In this document: positions 6,459-59,539 of the stretch, piece after piece
Position numbering within the stretch: the first letter of the stretch is position 1
Layout: each line of letters begins with the position of its first letter
Source: Desulfobacterales bacterium
GTDB taxonomy: Bacteria > Desulfobacterota > Desulfobacteria > Desulfobacterales > JANQIE01
Length of the DNA: 59,632 bases
Reading direction: 5' to 3'
NCBI GenBank assembly: GCA_028282295.1
Contig: JANQIE010000110.1
Span: 1-59,632 of the forward strand
Made by a program: the position numbers and the translations under genes
The notes under the pieces: generated by a model
The model's database searches: none
What the model was told of the DNA's origin: nothing
Seen by the model: the letters and a program-made list of their open reading frames with translations, nothing else

Positions 6459-6994
6459 GTCCCCTCCTTGCTCTAAGAATTAAATTATTCGGGCGAAGAC
6501 TGGTGGCGATTATCAACACGCCAAAAACGCCTACACGCCGCAACGCGGGTCAGAAAGACCCCGGAATCATCCGGCTGTGAGGTTCAATTGGAGACACTTG
6601 GTTTCGAAGGTATGGATTGCTGGGGAGATTTGTACGGGTATCGAGTCGCTGGCGCCGATAAGGGTTCCTACAATTTAAACTAACCGCATTGCCTTGCTTG
6701 TCAACCTGCATCCAGTTTTGGATTGATTCAGCCGGAACGGATATGCTAAAAGCAACGTTAACATACAAAATCCGCCCGGCCCTGAGCAAAGCGCCATTGA
6801 CCAGTCATTGCAATCATTCACCTCAATTTGATTGACTCTGATTAATCTGGTCCTATTTTGAATGACATACCCGCCTTAGCAAACGGAACGATCTGAAAAA
6901 TGACAATGAAATGATGTTGTTCGTTACAGTTGAATAAAAGATTGAATCACGACAAGCACTGCCTGAAGTACGATCTGGGCAAGGAGACAGGATC
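6459..6994. other. Divergent intergenic region
   Basis: 536 bp between the leftward kinase-like gene and the rightward PilZ gene; both promoters should lie here. I see no copy of the dispersed repeats and no ORF with a ribosome site. A TTGTTC...GAATAA pair around 6918-6941 could be a weak promoter for the PilZ gene, but the evidence is slight. Confidence 0.4.
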
Positions 6995-7273
6995 ATGGCT
7001 CTCGGCACCTCCCGTCCTATACGCGAGAGAAGGATGAACAACCGCAAGCGGTGCTCGCGATCCACGGAGCTACTCGTGAACAACCGGCCCTACCGTGGAT
7101 CAATGACAAACATCAGCATTGAAGGTGTTTTCATTGAAATCGAGCAACACTTTCGAGTCGGACAGAAAGTGACAATACGTTTCAACTCCAGTCGTGACAA
7201 CCGGCCGATAACCATGCGCGGAGAAATTGTGCGCAACACACAGCGCGGTGTGGGCGTGCGCTTCAAACATTGA
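6995..7273 (+). CDS. Small PilZ domain protein
   Basis: 92 residues consisting almost only of a PilZ domain: ERRMNNRKRCS (residues 11-21; RxxxR) and NISIEGVFIE (about 39-48; the [DN]xSxxG-like motif). This group is common in Desulfobacterota as single-domain c-di-GMP receptors. The AAGGAGACAGGATC ribosome site just before the ATG at 6995 fixes the start, although MNNRKR (7034) is an alternative. Convergent with the efflux permease gene only 10 bp downstream. Confidence 0.85.
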   Translation: MALGTSRPIRERRMNNRKRCSRSTELLVNNRPYRGSMTNISIEGVFIEIEQHFRVGQKVTIRFNSSRDNRPITMRGEIVRNTQRGVGVRFKH

Positions 7274-7283
7274 TGCCGCCCCG

Positions 7284-8561
7284 TCAAACATGCCGCAACG
7301 CTTGAATCGGGTCCAGATTGGCGGCCCGCCAGGCGGGATAAATACCAAACACCAACCCCACAGCCGCGGAGATTCCAAAAGACAGCAACAACGACCAGGC
7401 GGTGAATAGCACCTTAAGGCCGGTAAACAAGGCAATCAGCAGCGGCAGCGTCACGCCCAGCCCCAACCCCAACACACCCCCCACCACCGACAGCACCACC
7501 GTTTCGGAAAGAAATTGAATCGTGATGTCCCGTTTCCCGGCGCCCAAAGCACGCCTAATCCCGATCTCGCGGGTCCGTTCGGTGACATTGGCCAACATGA
7601 TGTTCATGATGCCGATGCCCCCCACCAACAGTGAAATGGCAGCGATCATCCCCAACACAATACTGAACATGCGGGCGCTGCGCCGAATCTCTTCGAGCAA
7701 CTTGAGCGGAATGATAATTTCGTAGTCTCTGCGGGGATGGTACCGCGCCAGCAGCGTCTCGATCATTTCAGCCAGGGGCAATACCCTTTCCATATCCGTG
7801 ACCTTCACAAAAATCAGATGCAACTCCACGGTCTCCGCCTCAAACGAACCGGCGCTCACTTTCAGGATCGTTTTGCCGAACCGCGCCCGGGCCGTGGTGA
7901 AGGGAATGTAGACCTCGGCATTGTTGTCCGTAACCAGACCGGCCTCGCCCGCACCGGACAGGATGGGCTGCATGACCCCCACCACCCGGTAGTAATCCTT
8001 GCCGATTTTGATAATACGTCCCAGCGGATTTTCGTACGGAAACAACTTGCGCTTGACCGCACTGCCGATGACGCAGACCGCCGCCCGGGCGTGCATATCC
8101 ACGTGCGAAATAAACCGTCCGCCATGCAACCGCTGACCGGTCACCTGCAAATACCAGGGCACGGCCGCGCGCACCAGGCCGTCGATCTTGCGATCCCGGT
8201 TCCAGATATCCTGACGGGTCTCACGAATCGGCATCACCACATCGATCCCCGGCAAGGTGGCCTGCATCCGCTCGGCATCGGCATACGTCAACCCGTAAAT
8301 CGCCGACGCAATACCGTGTGACGGCGGCCGCGCCTTGGTCTCCTCCGGCGGCTGGACACTCTTGATAATAATGTTTTGACTCCCCAGACTCTTGATCCGC
8401 TCCTGGGATTCATAACTGGCCCCCTCGCCGATGGCCAGCATCGCCACCACCGCCGCCACGCCGAAGACGATTCCCAGCATGGTCAGAATCGAACGGGTCA
8501 AATGCCGCGCCAGATTCTTGAAGCCGAGTTTCAAATTACGTTTGAGACCAAGTCGCAACAT
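7284..8561 (-). CDS. MacB-type ABC transporter permease
   Basis: 425-residue permease with the MacB/LolC topology: an N-terminal helix (about 20-45), a large periplasmic MacB_PCD domain (about 46-280), and three C-terminal helices in the FtsX domain, including the conserved REIGIRRALGAGKRDI near 340-355. It is the last gene of a four-gene operon (OMF, adaptor, ATPase, permease); the gap to the ATPase gene is 11 bp. Such systems move substrates (macrolides, lipopeptides, siderophores or toxins) from periplasm to exterior; the substrate cannot be read from sequence. Confidence 0.93.
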   Translation of the reverse strand: MLRLGLKRNLKLGFKNLARHLTRSILTMLGIVFGVAAVVAMLAIGEGASYESQERIKSLGSQNIIIKSVQPPEETKARPPSHGIASAIYGLTYADAERMQATLPGIDVVMPIRETRQDIWNRDRKIDGLVRAAVPWYLQVTGQRLHGGRFISHVDMHARAAVCVIGSAVKRKLFPYENPLGRIIKIGKDYYRVVGVMQPILSGAGEAGLVTDNNAEVYIPFTTARARFGKTILKVSAGSFEAETVELHLIFVKVTDMERVLPLAEMIETLLARYHPRRDYEIIIPLKLLEEIRRSARMFSIVLGMIAAISLLVGGIGIMNIMLANVTERTREIGIRRALGAGKRDITIQFLSETVVLSVVGGVLGLGLGVTLPLLIALFTGLKVLFTAWSLLLSFGISAAVGLVFGIYPAWRAANLDPIQALRHV

Positions 8562-8572
8562 CGCTTCGGTGC

Positions 8573-9259
8573 CTAATTAAAATGATCACTTGCGATCCGT
8601 CCATCCCGCAACCGGATCACTCGGCGGGCCCGTTGGGCCACGTGATCGTCATGGGTCACCATCAACAACGTGGTGCCGGCCCGGTTCAGTTCATCCAACA
8701 ACGCCAGAATTTCCTTACCCGTGGCCGAATCGAGATTGCCCGTTGGTTCGTCGGCCAGGATGACCAGCGGATCGTTGCACAACGCCCGTGCAATAGCCAC
8801 ACGCTGCTGCTGCCCGCCAGACAATTGATTCGGCTTGTGAAACAGGCGTTGGCTCAGTCCGACCCGCTCGGCCAGGGCCACGGCGCGCTCGCGACACCGC
8901 CGTTCCGACTGTCCCTGGTAGAACAGCGGCACCTCGATATTTTCCACCACCGAAAGCTGGGGAATCAAATTGTAAGACTGAAAAATAAATCCCAACTGCC
9001 GGCACCGTATCCGGGACAACCGGTTGTCATCGAGCGTGGCCACATTTTGACTGTCCAGGAAGTACTGCCCCCCGGTCGGCCGGTCCAGGCACCCCAGAAT
9101 ATTCAGCAGGGTCGATTTGCCCGATCCCGAAGCCCCCATAATGGCGGCATACTCGCCGGTGTTCACCGTCAAATCGACCCCTTGCAGGGCCGGCACTTCG
9201 ACGTCACCATCACCGAGGACATAGGTCTTGCTGATATGATCGAGTTTGATAAGCGACAT
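8573..9259 (-). CDS. MacB/LolD-type ABC transporter ATPase
   Basis: 228-residue ATP-binding subunit that powers the neighbouring permease. Walker A GASGSGKST at residues 42-50, signature LSGGQ at 146-150, Walker B LVILADEP at 165-172 and the switch His in THDD are all present, so it should be active. The ATG at 9259 (MSLIKLDHIS) was chosen: it lies 28 bp after the adaptor stop and gives the standard family length, whereas a longer reading would run into the adaptor gene. Confidence 0.95.
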   Translation of the reverse strand: MSLIKLDHISKTYVLGDGDVEVPALQGVDLTVNTGEYAAIMGASGSGKSTLLNILGCLDRPTGGQYFLDSQNVATLDDNRLSRIRCRQLGFIFQSYNLIPQLSVVENIEVPLFYQGQSERRCRERAVALAERVGLSQRLFHKPNQLSGGQQQRVAIARALCNDPLVILADEPTGNLDSATGKEILALLDELNRAGTTLLMVTHDDHVAQRARRVIRLRDGRIASDHFN

Positions 9260-9287
9260 AGATATTGCTGCACAGCACAATTGAAAA

Positions 9288-10913
9288 CTAGAAAGGTCGT
9301 GGACGGGTGGCGGTATCAAATTCGGGGGCGACCTTTTTAATACGGGCGCCGGCAGCCGGTTCATGCAGCAAAATCGCCTCGCCGCCCTCCAGGCCGGCCA
9401 CAATCTGCACAAACCGGTCATTGGCGCTGCCCATCAACACCGGACGGGCCTCATAATGTCCCCCCTTATCCACATAGCAAACCGATTGTTCTTTCAGGGC
9501 AAACACCGCCTGGGCCGGCACCAGCAGGACATCCGCCAAAACTTCGGCGATAATCTCCACACTGGCCGTCAGCCCCGGTTTCAGATACGGATGCCGCCCC
9601 TGCACAAGCACTTCGGTGGTGTAAACCTTCAGATCGGGATTCATCCAACTGACCTGCGAATCGGCCACGGCCGCGACCTTGGTGACCTTACCGGTGAGCG
9701 CCAGATCCGGATAGGCATCCAACTTGATCTTCACCTGCTGCCCTGCCTTGACTTTCTTCACCGCCGATTCAATAACCTTGACCTCCACGGCCATCTCGGA
9801 AAGATCGGGCAACCGGATCAACGCCTGCCGCTCGCGCACGGTCATGCCAGCCTCGATCGGCTCCTGTCGGCGCCGCCAGCCACCCTGGGCGGCATAAACC
9901 ACCAGACCGGGCTGGGTAGCGCGGATAACACACTTTTCAACCTGGTCGAGCAGCTTTTGAAGTTTGCTGTTTTGCAATTCATAGTTAAGCCGGCGCGACG
10001 CCTCCTTGGCGCGGGCACGTGCCTCCTTGCTCTTGGCCCGGGCGGTAATCCGCTCCAGCTCGCGCTCCGCCTCGCGGTAGTTGGACAGCAGCCGCTCGGT
10101 CTCCTTGGCAAAATCGTATTTAATGAACAACTCACGCGCAGTCTGGGCCCGCTCCAGCTCGACCCCCTTGCGTTTCAAGCTCAGCGTGTCCGCTTCCAGT
10201 TCATCGCGGGTCACATACCCCTTGGCATGCAACGTCTCGGTCCATTTCAGTTTATTCTGAGCCCGAGTCACCTCCTCGCGCGCCAGGTCGATATCGGTTT
10301 CCAAATAGCGTTTTTTCTGCAACGCCTCGCCGTCCAGCGCCTGACCGGCGATCAACCGGTCGTAGGCGTTCTTCTTGTTCTGTAAAATCTGCCGGGCCAA
10401 TCCGGCGCCCACATATTTTTCAAGATCCATCCAGGCAAATTTAACCTTCAACTCACCGGCATTGATATCACTTTCATTCTGTTTCAATTCGATCAACAAA
10501 TCCTCAGTGGCCTGATTAAAGGCTGAACGAGCGTCGTTAACCTTGATATGTTGCTGAGTCGCCTTGTCCTCCAAAGCCGAGGAATCGAGTTCCACCAGAA
10601 TTTTGCCCGCGGCGACATCCGCTTCGGTGATCAACGTCCCCTCGTCGACAATGCTGATCAAAGTGGTCGAGCCCTGCACCTGCGAGCGGATATCCTGAGA
10701 CCGCAACGCTTTCAGATTGCCCCGTTCCAGGACACTGACCACCAACTCCCCGCGCCCGACCTTGTAAAGCGTGCCGTTTGCATCAACCTCGTCAGGATCC
10801 GGAGCCATCAACGTTTGCAGCCCCATGAGCACCAGCGCGATACCGAACGCACCGAACCCGTAGAGCAAAAAACGCCAACCACCGCGCTGTCTCAACCTTT
10901 GCACAAAAGACAT
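9288..10913 (-). CDS. HlyD/MacA-type periplasmic adaptor
   Basis: 541-residue membrane fusion protein linking the inner-membrane permease to the outer-membrane channel. One N-terminal helix (about 15-32), a lipoyl/barrel half near 45-110, a long alpha-helical hairpin (about 115-350, rich in Lys/Glu/Arg heptads), then the second lipoyl half and beta-barrel (about 350-520). The hairpin is long for MacA, suggesting reach through a wide periplasm. The ATG at 10913 follows the OMF stop by 8 bp with an AGGAAA-like site; the two genes are translationally close. Confidence 0.92.
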   Translation of the reverse strand: MSFVQRLRQRGGWRFLLYGFGAFGIALVLMGLQTLMAPDPDEVDANGTLYKVGRGELVVSVLERGNLKALRSQDIRSQVQGSTTLISIVDEGTLITEADVAAGKILVELDSSALEDKATQQHIKVNDARSAFNQATEDLLIELKQNESDINAGELKVKFAWMDLEKYVGAGLARQILQNKKNAYDRLIAGQALDGEALQKKRYLETDIDLAREEVTRAQNKLKWTETLHAKGYVTRDELEADTLSLKRKGVELERAQTARELFIKYDFAKETERLLSNYREAERELERITARAKSKEARARAKEASRRLNYELQNSKLQKLLDQVEKCVIRATQPGLVVYAAQGGWRRRQEPIEAGMTVRERQALIRLPDLSEMAVEVKVIESAVKKVKAGQQVKIKLDAYPDLALTGKVTKVAAVADSQVSWMNPDLKVYTTEVLVQGRHPYLKPGLTASVEIIAEVLADVLLVPAQAVFALKEQSVCYVDKGGHYEARPVLMGSANDRFVQIVAGLEGGEAILLHEPAAGARIKKVAPEFDTATRPRPF

Positions 10914-56611: not shown

Positions 56612-57967
56612 TCAGATGGCGGCGGCCACCATCCCCACCCGCAGGCGTGACCGGCCCCCGGTCCGGCACGAGGCCATTTCGGATTTACGCAACGCTTGGG
56701 CCAAATCGTTCGTGATGTCAACCGGATCTTCAATCCCGATGGACAGCCGGATCAGATTCGGCGTGATCCCGCCGGCCCGCTGTTCTTCCTCGGTCAACTG
56801 GCTGTGGGTGGTGCTGGCCGGATGGCATGCCAGGCTTTTGTTGTCGCCCACATTGGCCACATGTGAAAACAGGTTCAAGTTGTCGATAAACCGCGCGCCG
56901 GCGTCACGGCCGCCTTCGATACCGAAGACCACCATGCCGCCGAAACCACCGGTAAACTGTTGTTTTGCCACCGGATGGGCCGGGTCGTTCTTGAGCCCCG
57001 GATAACGTATCCATTGAACCTGTTTCCGGGCCTGTAAAAAACGGGCCACGATCAGGGCGTTCTCGCAATGGCGCTGCATGCGCAAGGGCAGGGTTTCAAG
57101 CCCCTGCAAAAACAGCCAGGCATTGTCCGGACTGAGGCAGGCCCCCAGGTTGCGCAGCGGCACCAACCGCATCCGCAGGATAAAGGCCAACGGGTTCAAA
57201 TCGCCCAGGTCGTGGGCATAGCGCAGTCCGTGATATGAGGGGTCGGGCTCGTTGTAAAGCCGGAATTTGGGATCGGTCCAGTCGAACCGGCCGCTGTCGA
57301 CCGCCACGCCGCCGATGCCGGTGCCGTGACCGCACAGCCACTTGGTGAGTGAATGGACCACGATGTCGGCCCCCAGTTCCAGCGGCCGGCACAAGCAAGG
57401 CGTGGTAAAAGTCGCATCGACCACCAGGGGCACATGGTGCTTTTTAGCGATGGCCGCCACGGCGCGGATGTCGACAACATCCAGGGCCGGGTTGCCGATG
57501 GTTTCCACGAAAAGCAGGCGGGTTTTGGCATTCACGGCGCGATCGAAACCGTCGGGATCGCGCGGGTCGACGAATTGGGCCTGGATGCCCATTTCCGGCA
57601 GAATATGTTTGAACATGGTGAACGTGCCGCCGTACAAATTGTTGGCGACGACAATCTCATCGCCCCGGCCGCAGATGTTGATGATGGTGTAGAAAATGGC
57701 CGAGGTGCCCGAGGACAAAGCCAGCGCGCCGCCGCCGCCTTCCAGGGCAAAGAGGCGTTTTTCGAGCATCTCCTGGGTCGGGTTGGTCAAGCGGGTGTAA
57801 ATGTTGCCCAGCTCCTTCAGGGCGAACAGGTCGGCGGCATGGCGGGTATTGTTGAATAGGTAGGCACTGGTCCGGTGGACCGGCACCGCCCGGCAGCGGG
57901 TGCTGTCGATCATGGTTCCGGCGTGCAAGGCCATGGTCGCAAATTGAGACGCATTTGCATTCGGCAT
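56612..57967 (-). CDS. metY: O-acetylhomoserine sulfhydrylase (MetY)
   Basis: 451-residue PLP enzyme of the Cys/Met metabolism family that makes homocysteine from O-acetylhomoserine and sulfide (or methionine from methanethiol). PLP Lys209 is in VVHSLTKWLCGHGTG; SSGTSAIFYTIINIC and YTRLTNPTQEMLEKRL are typical. The C-terminal HPASTTHSQLTEEEQ...IRLSIGIEDP is the O-acetylhomoserine-type end. GAGGAGGG upstream supports the ATG at 57967. A sulfide-assimilating enzyme suits a sulfide-rich anaerobe. The last ~18 residues are Arg-rich and unlike the family. Confidence 0.93.
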   Translation of the reverse strand: MPNANASQFATMALHAGTMIDSTRCRAVPVHRTSAYLFNNTRHAADLFALKELGNIYTRLTNPTQEMLEKRLFALEGGGGALALSSGTSAIFYTIINICGRGDEIVVANNLYGGTFTMFKHILPEMGIQAQFVDPRDPDGFDRAVNAKTRLLFVETIGNPALDVVDIRAVAAIAKKHHVPLVVDATFTTPCLCRPLELGADIVVHSLTKWLCGHGTGIGGVAVDSGRFDWTDPKFRLYNEPDPSYHGLRYAHDLGDLNPLAFILRMRLVPLRNLGACLSPDNAWLFLQGLETLPLRMQRHCENALIVARFLQARKQVQWIRYPGLKNDPAHPVAKQQFTGGFGGMVVFGIEGGRDAGARFIDNLNLFSHVANVGDNKSLACHPASTTHSQLTEEEQRAGGITPNLIRLSIGIEDPVDITNDLAQALRKSEMASCRTGGRSRLRVGMVAAAI

Positions 57968-58003: not shown

Positions 58004-58585
58004 TTATTTGCGTGTGACGACAAATTCACCATGCGCATCGCCGTGTTCGATCCCTTTGGTCTGTTCACAGGTATAGGTGTCCATCCCCTCGGGATATTCA
58101 TCGGCGTAAGCCAACTCGAAAAATGCGGCACTGACCCCCCGGATCATAAAGGCCCGCATGTCGCCCGGCGGGCCGTCGGCTTCATAGTAATCGGTGGCGC
58201 GCACCACCATTTTTTCCTTGGGATCAATCTTGGCGATTCCGGATTTGGCCCACCCCCAGGCCGTAAAAACCGCGTAAGCGCCGCGCAGTACATCCTTTTC
58301 ACCCTCGGTAACCATCGGCATGACCACCTTTTTAAATTCTTCCGAAGTGATAATGCCGTAGCCGGTGTGATAGCCGCACTCGTAGGCGCAGCGCACCAGC
58401 GCGGCTTCCACTTGCTTGCGTCGTTCCGGCGGCGCGGCGTCCATCATCCGCAAGGCGAATGTGTTCCAGAAGGCCACCGGCAGTTGATTGACAAACACAC
58501 CAAAAGCATCGATCAAACCGTCCTGGTCACCTTGAACCGTAAGGCCGGCCAGTGCTTTGACCACATCGTCACGCATCACTGTCAT
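58004..58585 (-). CDS. V4R-like (hydrocarbon-binding-type) sensor protein 2
   Basis: 193 residues. The C-terminal half fits a V4R-like domain: DYYEADGPPGDMRAFMIRGVSAAFFELAY and the ending CEQTKGIEHGDAHGEFVVTRK, where the usual Cys-x-Gly-x-x-x-C-x-F ligand motif is altered (one Cys left). N-terminal helical part about 1-90. CAGGAGGAAAGTACC precedes the ATG at 58585. It lies 16 bp after the first V4R-like gene; third gene of the operon. Proposed role: small-molecule sensing, inferred from family. Confidence 0.7.
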   Translation of the reverse strand: MTVMRDDVVKALAGLTVQGDQDGLIDAFGVFVNQLPVAFWNTFALRMMDAAPPERRKQVEAALVRCAYECGYHTGYGIITSEEFKKVVMPMVTEGEKDVLRGAYAVFTAWGWAKSGIAKIDPKEKMVVRATDYYEADGPPGDMRAFMIRGVSAAFFELAYADEYPEGMDTYTCEQTKGIEHGDAHGEFVVTRK

Positions 58586-58601
58586 GGTACTTTCCTCCTG
58601 A

Positions 58602-59120
58602 TCAATTGTTGGTATGAACCTTGAAACGGCTGTAGTCGTTTCCGGTTGCAATGGCTTCCATTTCATGCACCGCAAAGCTGCGCGCCGGTTTGCCCACCGC
58701 GGCGGCGAACATGGCCGCAATATAGCCGCGGGTGAAGAAGTTCACTGGTTGGCTGTTGCGGCCCCATCTTTTCAGCCATCCCTGGTCCACATGCGAGCGC
58801 GCCAACACCACCTCGCCGCCCTGCTCGTTGGCGGTCGCCTTCATTTTACCCAGGCCCATGACCGCGTAATAGCGCATGCCGACCAGCAATTTATCCTTGA
58901 CGGTGGTCACATCGTTTTTCTTAAAATACTCTTCGAACACCGGGCGCATGGTGTCTTCGGCCGTTTCCTGAAGAATTTGCAGACCGTTGATTTCCTTGAA
59001 GTCCATGGCGGTTTTGGTGGTCAGACACAGGTAGTGGTGGCAGTGCAGAACGGAAAGAAAACCGTTCATGTAATGCCGGTAACTTTTTTCATCAAAGGTG
59101 AAGTTTACATTTAATGTCAT
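58602..59120 (-). CDS. V4R-like (hydrocarbon-binding-type) sensor protein 1
   Basis: 172 residues, with GGEVVLARSHVDQGWLKRWG, NFFTRGYIAAMFAAAVGKPARSFAVHEMEAIATGND and YSRFKVH, the layout of a V4R domain with the terminal Cys pair replaced (Glu-Ala-Ile, Asp-Tyr-Ser). The N-terminal half has LCLTTKTAMDFKE and a helical linker. GGAGGTCATTGACA precedes the ATG at 59120. Second gene of the roadblock-V4R-V4R operon. Confidence 0.72.
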   Translation of the reverse strand: MTLNVNFTFDEKSYRHYMNGFLSVLHCHHYLCLTTKTAMDFKEINGLQILQETAEDTMRPVFEEYFKKNDVTTVKDKLLVGMRYYAVMGLGKMKATANEQGGEVVLARSHVDQGWLKRWGRNSQPVNFFTRGYIAAMFAAAVGKPARSFAVHEMEAIATGNDYSRFKVHTNN

Positions 59121-59141
59121 TGTCAATGACCTCCTTATGAA

Positions 59142-59507
59142 TTAAAAGAAGTCAACCAGTGCAGGCTTGATCTTTTTTAGTTTGAAGCGCAACATGCCCA
59201 ACGAAGACGCGTCCGACGCCAGCACAGTCAGGATTGCATCACCAACCGGCGAGCACAGCAGCAGGGCGTCGCCGTACTCGATGAACATGTCTTTGAACTT
59301 TTCAATTTGCAGATCCTGGCCCATGGTTTCAAGCCGCATCACGGCGCCCGCAATTGAAGCGCCCAGGGCGTCGAGCTCGACGGAAATCTGTTTGCCCACT
59401 TGCTCGATGACAAACCCGTCGCGTCCGATCACCACAGCGGCTTCAACTTCCTGGATGGCCAGCAGATCGTTGAGCAAACTTGTGGGTGAAATAGCTTGTG
59501 CGTCCAT
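59142..59507 (-). CDS. Roadblock/LC7 domain protein
   Basis: 121 residues forming one roadblock/LC7 (MglB-like) domain: SLLNDLLAIQEVEAAVVIGRDGFVIE opens it, AVMRLETMGQDL and LLLCSPVGDAILTVLASDASSLGMLRF follow. Roadblock proteins dimerise and regulate small GTPases or scaffold sensors. AAGGAGAGTAAAGT fixes the ATG at 59507. First gene of the operon with two V4R-like proteins; no Ras-like GTPase lies in the window. Confidence 0.88.
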   Translation of the reverse strand: MDAQAISPTSLLNDLLAIQEVEAAVVIGRDGFVIEQVGKQISVELDALGASIAGAVMRLETMGQDLQIEKFKDMFIEYGDALLLCSPVGDAILTVLASDASSLGMLRFKLKKIKPALVDFF

Positions 59508-59539
59508 ACTTTACTCTCCTTGAATGATTTATTTACCTA

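Follow-up and report, generated by a model that had tools for sequence, protein, structure and literature searches.

A conserved bacterial gene module links a divergent V4R-fold protein pair to a roadblock protein

The last genes of a Desulfobacterales contig encode a roadblock protein (RB) and two paralogous proteins of predicted V4R fold (P2 and P1), and this trio is conserved in other genomes. We present it as a candidate for a small, conserved input module, in which a stand-alone, heteromeric V4R-fold pair with no zinc site travels with one type of roadblock protein. To our knowledge, few inputs are known for roadblock proteins outside the MglA/MglB scheme. No earlier description of the operon, or of a conserved module that would couple V4R-fold sensing to a roadblock protein, was found in the titles or abstract openings of open-licence papers among the matches listed.

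Operon organization

The window, meaning the whole stretch of 59,632 nucleotides that was analyzed, is an entire contig (C240 of its assembly). The minus-strand operon RB-P2-P1 occupies its last 1.5 kb, with RB as the operon gene nearest the contig end. The features are:

59516..59521, minus strand: ribosome site of RB, AAGGAG
59142..59507, minus strand: RB (P0003), stand-alone roadblock/LC7 protein of 121 aa by PF03259 profile, with the motif GRDGFVIE
59130..59136, minus strand: ribosome site of P2, AAGGAGG
58602..59120, minus strand: P2 (P0002), V4R-fold subunit of 172 aa by predicted fold, with HCHHY at residues 26-30, His110 and no zinc-type Cys at the C-terminus
58594..58599, minus strand: ribosome site of P1, AGGAGG
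58004..58585, minus strand: P1 (P0001), paralogous V4R/Bet3-fold subunit of 193 aa by homology to P2, with an ECGYHT region and the invariant Cys70
56612..57967, minus strand: PLP enzyme of Cys/Met metabolism downstream of P1 (PF01053, Cys_Met_Meta_PP, E 3.8e-129), with its own ribosome site

The original prediction described three genes on one strand with strong ribosome sites and short gaps. This holds, as the gaps are 21 nt between RB and P2 and 16 nt between P2 and P1, and in all three genes a ribosome site rich in purines precedes the ATG by a few bases. Because all three genes are conserved together in other loci, their grouping is confirmed as real and not a product of chance. The transcript may exceed three genes, since the PLP enzyme begins only 36 nt past P1; however, no homologue of this enzyme was found by phmmer at 1e-10 in the 80 comparison loci described below or in a further locus, L051, and it is therefore not a conserved part of the module. 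Neither Rfam (at gathering scores) nor a tRNA search found anything in the window. Elsewhere in the window, mechanical reading frames at ~50.2 kb and at 55.5-55.7 kb share the peptide QKMLFPDGH and are perhaps a repeated DNA element.

Relatives and clades

A P1 profile search of the GTDB collection yielded 110 confirmed loci, the best 80 of which were named and compared; a search of the same collection with the single P1 sequence had returned nothing. These 80 are divided into A1 (31 loci, L074-L104) and A2 (49 loci, L105-L153), both of type A. Type B is a sister group (15 sequences; loci L049 and L056-L070) in which the zinc-type Cys residues are kept. In a P1 tree of 91 rows, made by a quick method and rooted on type B with the long-branched L048, the A1 loci, the window and L051 form one clade (SH-aLRT 100). 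This clade is nested among A2 by branches with support of 84-93, and A2 is not one clade.

By record names, A1 covers Desulfuromonadia, Desulfobacteria, Acidobacteriota, Myxococcota, Gammaproteobacteria and one archaeon, although nearly all of these records are metagenome bins and some "Myxococcota" are merely records called Deltaproteobacteria. One of the closest P1 proteins (L074, 74%) lies in a bin named Methanoregulaceae archaeon; this is probably a binning error that placed a bacterial contig in the wrong bin. The records of L103 and L126 share the Myxococcota bin name Old_saline.mb.39, so that one genome may hold both an A1 trio (L103) and an A2 pair (L126).

The P2-P1 pair and its link to the roadblock protein

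P1 and P2 are paralogues, as seen in cross hits and an hhalign probability of 93, and P2 adjoins P1 in every one of the 80 loci (the best 80 of 110). Three natural P2-P1 fusions were found: L127 and L153 are single-gene fusions, and L084 carries a second, divergent pair that is fused, in addition to its main pair. In a sample of 116 relative genomes, our own included, P1 matches were present in 22 and P2 matches in 21. In the genomes with matches the two lie side by side, except in G083, where they are on different contigs, and G073, which has a partial P1 and no P2. The constant adjacency and the natural fusions are strong evidence that P2-P1 is a heteromeric unit. Within A1, the distances of all three proteins correlate, with Mantel r of 0.82 for P1-P2, 0.70 for P1-RB and 0.60 for P2-RB (0 of 1000 permutations in each case).

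RB itself is recognized by the Robl_LC7 profile (PF03259) at 38.3 bits and E 1.1e-9 against a cut-off of 23. All 31 A1 loci have a roadblock gene beside P2-P1 and in the same orientation. As called with an A1 roadblock model, it is found only before P2 in 27 loci, on both sides in two (L092 and L095) and only after P1 in two (L084 and L090). Co-occurrence of the trio, a check named in the original prediction, is thereby borne out in this clade. A reverse search from the roadblock side agrees. Strong roadblock matches of at least 180 bits were confined to G000 and G002 among the 116 relatives and to G000 and G385 among 395 genomes of the phylum, two samples that overlap; these three are the only genomes in both samples with a P1 of at least 66% identity. 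G385 is the genome of L092 and adds no further case. Below these, roadblocks score at most 91 bits, and their genomes have no P1 of at least 66% identity.

In A2, no roadblock was detected near any of the 49 pairs within the fetched flanks, many of which are cut by contig ends, using the A1 model and a broader model that included the MglB-like protein of our own genome. Roadblocks occur somewhere in the genome in 13 of 48 searchable A2 genomes (L148 left aside). As all 49 A2 pairs are without a recognizable roadblock, the P2-P1 pair does not need one. The module is not simply the compact trio of the original prediction; its core is the pair. The A1 clade fits a single gain of the roadblock link, followed by inheritance of the operon through rearrangement, and the 31 loci should thus not be counted as 31 independent events.

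Absence of a neighboring GTPase

The original prediction also placed the trio, with no GTPase beside it, outside the standard MglA/MglB scheme. A phmmer search with the MglA of our own genome as query (E values up to 10) detected no MglA-like protein in the 80 loci (the best 80 of 110), in L051 or in the window, whose sequence stops before any gene upstream of RB; at the level of genes the trio is thus outside that scheme. The genome does encode an MglA-like protein away from the operon (C71:57176), next to a roadblock of its own (C71:56741) that is distinct from RB. RB matches MglB and other roadblock structures by sequence (MglB at E 2e-7 with a roadblock profile) and scores 15.6 bits with the NCBIfam MglB equivalog, for which the cut-off is 200. 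The trio could act on MglA in trans. Near weaker relatives of RB, in two of five loci that have no P1, MglA-like genes with an adjacent roadblock lie a few kb away (L171, 11905-12507; L172, 3467-4318).

Predicted fold of P1 and P2

Profile searches alone would not place P1 and P2 among V4R proteins. P0002 scores 16.2 bits with V4R (PF02830) against a curated cut-off of 31, P0001 has no Pfam match, and at E 0.01 the V4R profile was found in three of 63 type-A P2 proteins and none of 63 type-A P1 proteins (63 scanned per subunit, drawn from the 80 loci and the window, the window included). NCBIfam matches of P1 and P2 were below cut-offs. Searches of solved structures by sequence, with single P1 or P2 proteins or their profiles, gave no V4R or Bet3 chain, and the few matches that they did return look like chance. 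A distant P2 from L048, 29% identical to P0002, reaches 46.6 bits with V4R and exceeds the cut-off.

The assignment holds by fold. The AlphaFold2 model of the window P2, made from 63 sequences, has a pLDDT of 95.6 and matches the phenol-sensor domains of PoxR, MopR and DmpR at Z ~19 with an rmsd of 2.6 over 169 of 172 residues (Foldseek, VIA-align). The next matches are MJ1460 (Z 13.8) and, at Z ~12, TRAPP Bet3-family chains, including Bet3-TPC6B, Bet3-Trs33 and TPC6 chains, together with Thorarchaeal TRAPPC3; a match to H-NOX at Z ~8 is in the range where the tool warns of common arrangements. For P1 we used a model of the natural P2-P1 fusion of L153 (pTM 0.87, pLDDT 87, 24 sequences; five models from 64.9 to 87.0), based on the smaller of two alignments, as the larger placed P2 on the P1 half and was discarded. 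Over 164 residues, the P1 half aligns with 3cue_E, a TRAPP chain, at Z 11.6. A V4R/Bet3 fold was found both in the P2 model and in the P1 half of the fusion model, and on these predicted structures P1 and P2 are divergent V4R/Bet3-fold proteins. The V4R label in the original prediction thus failed for the window proteins at the Pfam cut-off and was upheld by structure.

Loss of the zinc site and new invariant residues

In DmpR, zinc is held by three Cys and one Glu (Cys151, Glu172, Cys177 and Cys185; PMC7264223, excerpt). At the aligned Cys positions of P2 (127, 156 and 164), all three residues are Cys in 15 of 15 type B proteins and none is in 81 of 82 type A proteins; L107 is the sole type-A P2 with one of the three. 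At the aligned positions of P1 (145, 178 and 186), Cys is present in 15 of 15 type B proteins and in 0 of 82 type A proteins. The intermediate L048 has all three zinc-type Cys in both subunits. The predicted lack of the usual Cys ligands was therefore correct and applies across type A, with all three absent in 82 of 82 P1 and 81 of 82 P2. Because these Cys residues are missing, we file P1 and P2 as a divergent branch of the V4R superfamily and not as canonical V4R proteins. The loss by itself is not exotic, since mouse TRAPPC3 has lost the zinc site too (PMC10933270, excerpt).

Other residues are conserved in its place or throughout. Type-A P1 has His73 in 77 of 82 and Cys173 in 75 of 82 (both Ala in type B), and Glu180 in all 82. 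Type-A P2 has Asp112 in 78 of 82, with Glu in the other four and Val in type B. Across all types, the HxHH residues of P2 (His26, His28 and His29) do not vary in any of the 97 readable sequences. Cys70 of P1 is likewise invariant in 98 of 98, and 97 of 98 sequences retain His110 of P2. Cys27 of the HCHHY motif is replaced by Ser in 16 of 33 A1 proteins.

By structural alignment ranges, HCHHY sits at the end of an N-terminal region equivalent to the region through which DmpR dimers interlock (PMC7264223, excerpt). The strand leading into HCHHY spans residues 22-28 (VCSVIHC) in the fusion model but 21-23 in the model of P2 alone; the fusion model also has an equally long P1 strand at 230-236 (VYVQQLP; window P1 30-36). 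In the model, the lengthened strand and its equal in P1 would fit a pairing of strands across the two subunits.

The His that positions phenol in DmpR aligns with position 85 of P2, an equivalence taken from an alignment of L048 with MopR; this residue is Tyr, Phe or Trp in 96 of 97 readable P2 proteins and Cys in one. The pocket Trp of the DmpR type, whose position was read by eye, is not kept in P2. As this His and Trp of the PoxR/DmpR pocket are not kept, nothing points to phenol, and we regard it as an unsupported ligand.

Gene neighborhoods of the relatives

The relatives add genes to the module: DUF4388 and receiver domains, ParA, FIST and further roadblocks. Pfam's DUF4388 is what we take to be the PATAN domain. 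In L079 (Geobacteraceae), the roadblock is a DUF4388-roadblock protein (PF14332 and PF03259), with an upstream FIST protein that is NosP-like (277.6 bits, cut-off 450). Downstream lie genes for a ParA-type ATPase and for another protein resembling roadblocks (C200). Over the A1 loci, FIST was found in 16 of 31, ParA in 23 and the C200 protein in 19. In L051 and L092 a receiver-DUF4388-roadblock fusion is encoded directly upstream of P2.

The A2 neighborhoods have a protein of ~60-70 aa directly before P2 in 44 of 49 loci, and MCP-like proteins, a domain call that rests on one member, nearby in 14. The small A2 protein may be related to the A1 protein that precedes FIST (hhalign probability 40, E 3e-4). 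A domain of ~120 aa, here called X, was seen near A2 pairs in six loci. It stands alone in four (L131, 4801-5202; L143, 706-1125; L114, 10637-11047; L139, 5363-5758) and is part of a receiver-DUF4388-X protein in L149 (7900-9243, by Pfam) and L133 (6143-7414, by similarity). Domain X is roadblock-like by eye, but profile comparison gave a probability of 1.6 and we do not count it as a roadblock.

In the type B locus L066, the pair (9215-10354) precedes a PAS/HisKA_3 kinase and is followed further downstream by MtrH and a gene of the URO-D family, which suggests that a Cys-keeping pair of this sort is a sensor for corrinoid-dependent methyl metabolism. Three loci with weaker RB relatives (L173, 5971-7532; L174, 5617-7080; L175, 4247-6120) have a DUF4388-roadblock or receiver-DUF4388-roadblock gene followed by one for a Cys-rich protein of ~205-217 aa, which belongs to no Pfam family and is unrelated to P1 and P2 by profile comparison. 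These loci represent another roadblock-partner pair.

Proposed function and alternatives

We consider it probable, with room for doubt, that P2 and P1, as a V4R/Bet3-fold heterodimer, detect a small ligand or a metal and use the roadblock protein to pass the signal on. RB-P2-P1 would then encode a soluble sensory complex in which P2 pairs obligately with P1, in a heterodimer with the architecture of the interlocked sensor dimer of PoxR/DmpR. The small ligand or metal would be bound near the dimer interface, where HxHH and His110 of P2 and Cys70 and His73 of P1 are candidate residues, and its binding would alter the shape of the heterodimer. Roadblock proteins are generally dimers, and RB probably is too. 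RB would contact the pair, read the change and, acting as scaffold or output, relay it in the role that a fused AAA+ or kinase domain would otherwise have. A precedent is HGbRL, whose sensor domain has been proposed to drive a roadblock (PMC4476040, excerpt). Because the roadblock in relatives is joined to DUF4388/PATAN and receivers and is co-encoded with a ParA-type ATPase, the module probably controls a cell-surface or polarity machine rather than acting on transcription directly. A surface machine is our guess since a connection of PATAN-domain receivers with type IV pili has been described in cyanobacteria (PMC7690835, excerpt).

The best-supported rival, which we still judge unlikely, makes the V4R pair an enzyme or cofactor carrier in sulfur chemistry and not a sensor; it would act jointly with a desulfurase-like protein and a protein of ~95 aa encoded nearby, the roadblock only assembling or regulating it. 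It owes this standing to two genes often found near the pair: a class V aminotransferase resembling cysteine desulfurases, within 6 kb in 31 of 49 A2 and 9 of 31 A1 loci (one member scores 362 bits with TIGR01977, cut-off 377), and a protein of ~95 aa, within 6 kb in 36 of 49 and 9 of 31; L107 offers an A2 example of both (6794-8235 and 9145-9423). The different Cys/Met PLP enzyme immediately downstream in the window, the conserved His and Cys of P2 and P1, and the cleavage of a C-S bond by ATC hydrolase, a related domain (PMC5847659, excerpt), would all suit such chemistry. However, no desulfurase-like gene was seen up to 6 kb away in 40 of the 80 loci (some are cut by contig ends), the nearest folds are ligand sensors, and much of the other context is one of signaling, with receivers, MCP-like proteins in 14 A2 loci, a histidine kinase in L066, ParA and FIST.

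We give little credence to two further readings, each about as improbable as the other. In one, the V4R heterodimer and the roadblock would together serve as a TRAPP-like platform for nucleotide exchange in bacteria; its target NTPase would be the operon's ParA-type ATPase or an MglA whose gene lies elsewhere. This reading is favored by the shared set of folds, in which a Bet3-fold heterodimer is combined with a subunit of roadblock/longin type (PMC10933270, excerpt), by the TRAPP chains that P2 and P1 match, by ParA in 23 of 31 A1 loci, by the MglA-like GTPase at C71 and by the MglA-like genes of L171 and L172; yet P2 is much nearer to PoxR/MopR (Z 19) than to TRAPP (12), the 80 loci, L051 and the window gave no MglA-like protein by phmmer, the MglA of our genome already has its own roadblock neighbor, and ParA was not found within 6 kb in 8 of 31 A1 loci, some of them on short contigs. 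In the other reading, the roadblock is a passenger of a separate DUF4388/receiver pathway that merely shares an operon with the V4R pair. Ten genomes of the phylum that have no P1 match at E 1e-20 do contain weaker RB relatives (43-91 bits), these adjoin the unrelated Cys-rich protein in three of five such loci (L173-L175), and A2 pairs exist without a roadblock; on the other hand, A1 retains the roadblock in all 31 loci despite changes in gene order, and the strong roadblock type is restricted, in two samples, to genomes with this type of P1. A sensory heterodimer signaling through RB remains the reading we prefer. As a more speculative and quite doubtful extension, the module could be a bacterial counterpart of the TRAPP core in both make-up and mechanism, with a zinc-free Bet3/V4R heterodimer and roadblocks forming a ligand-gated platform that controls a ParA-type or MglA NTPase and so links a chemical signal to polarity or pilus control.

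Comparison with known systems

Among characterized proteins, the V4R sensors PoxR, MopR and DmpR are the closest in fold. The 169 residues over which P2 aligns with them include the interlocking N-terminal region of DmpR (PMC7264223, excerpt), and by analogy a dimeric ligand sensor is a natural model for P2-P1. Unlike these homodimers, P2-P1 is a probable heteromer and stands alone, with no AAA+ or DNA-binding domain and without the zinc Cys residues. P2 also differs from DmpR in the aromatic residue at position 85, where XylR also has Tyr (PMC7264223, excerpt), in the lost Trp and in the invariant HxHH.

RB is related to MglB by sequence, but unlike in MglA/MglB no GTPase was found in the operon or in the loci of the 80 relatives. 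HGbRL of Methylacidiphilum is similar, as its ligand-binding sensor is coupled to a roadblock and the polypeptide contains no GTPase (PMC4476040, excerpt). HGbRL, however, is a heme globin fused to its roadblock in one genus, whereas the module described here has a V4R pair, separate genes and a wider range of taxa.

The TRAPP core (Bet3-Trs31/Trs33 plus longin subunits) and the Asgard TRAPPC3/roadblock proteins share with the module two paralogous Bet3-fold subunits and a roadblock/longin-type fold. Unlike TRAPP, the module is bacterial, has no Rab, uses a roadblock instead of a longin and matches TRAPP structures less well than PoxR, and the likeness is probably one of convergent composition. 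If the proteins bind one another, they would form a bacterial assembly with the fold set of the TRAPP core and would help in tracing how V4R and roadblock folds began to work together before eukaryotes.
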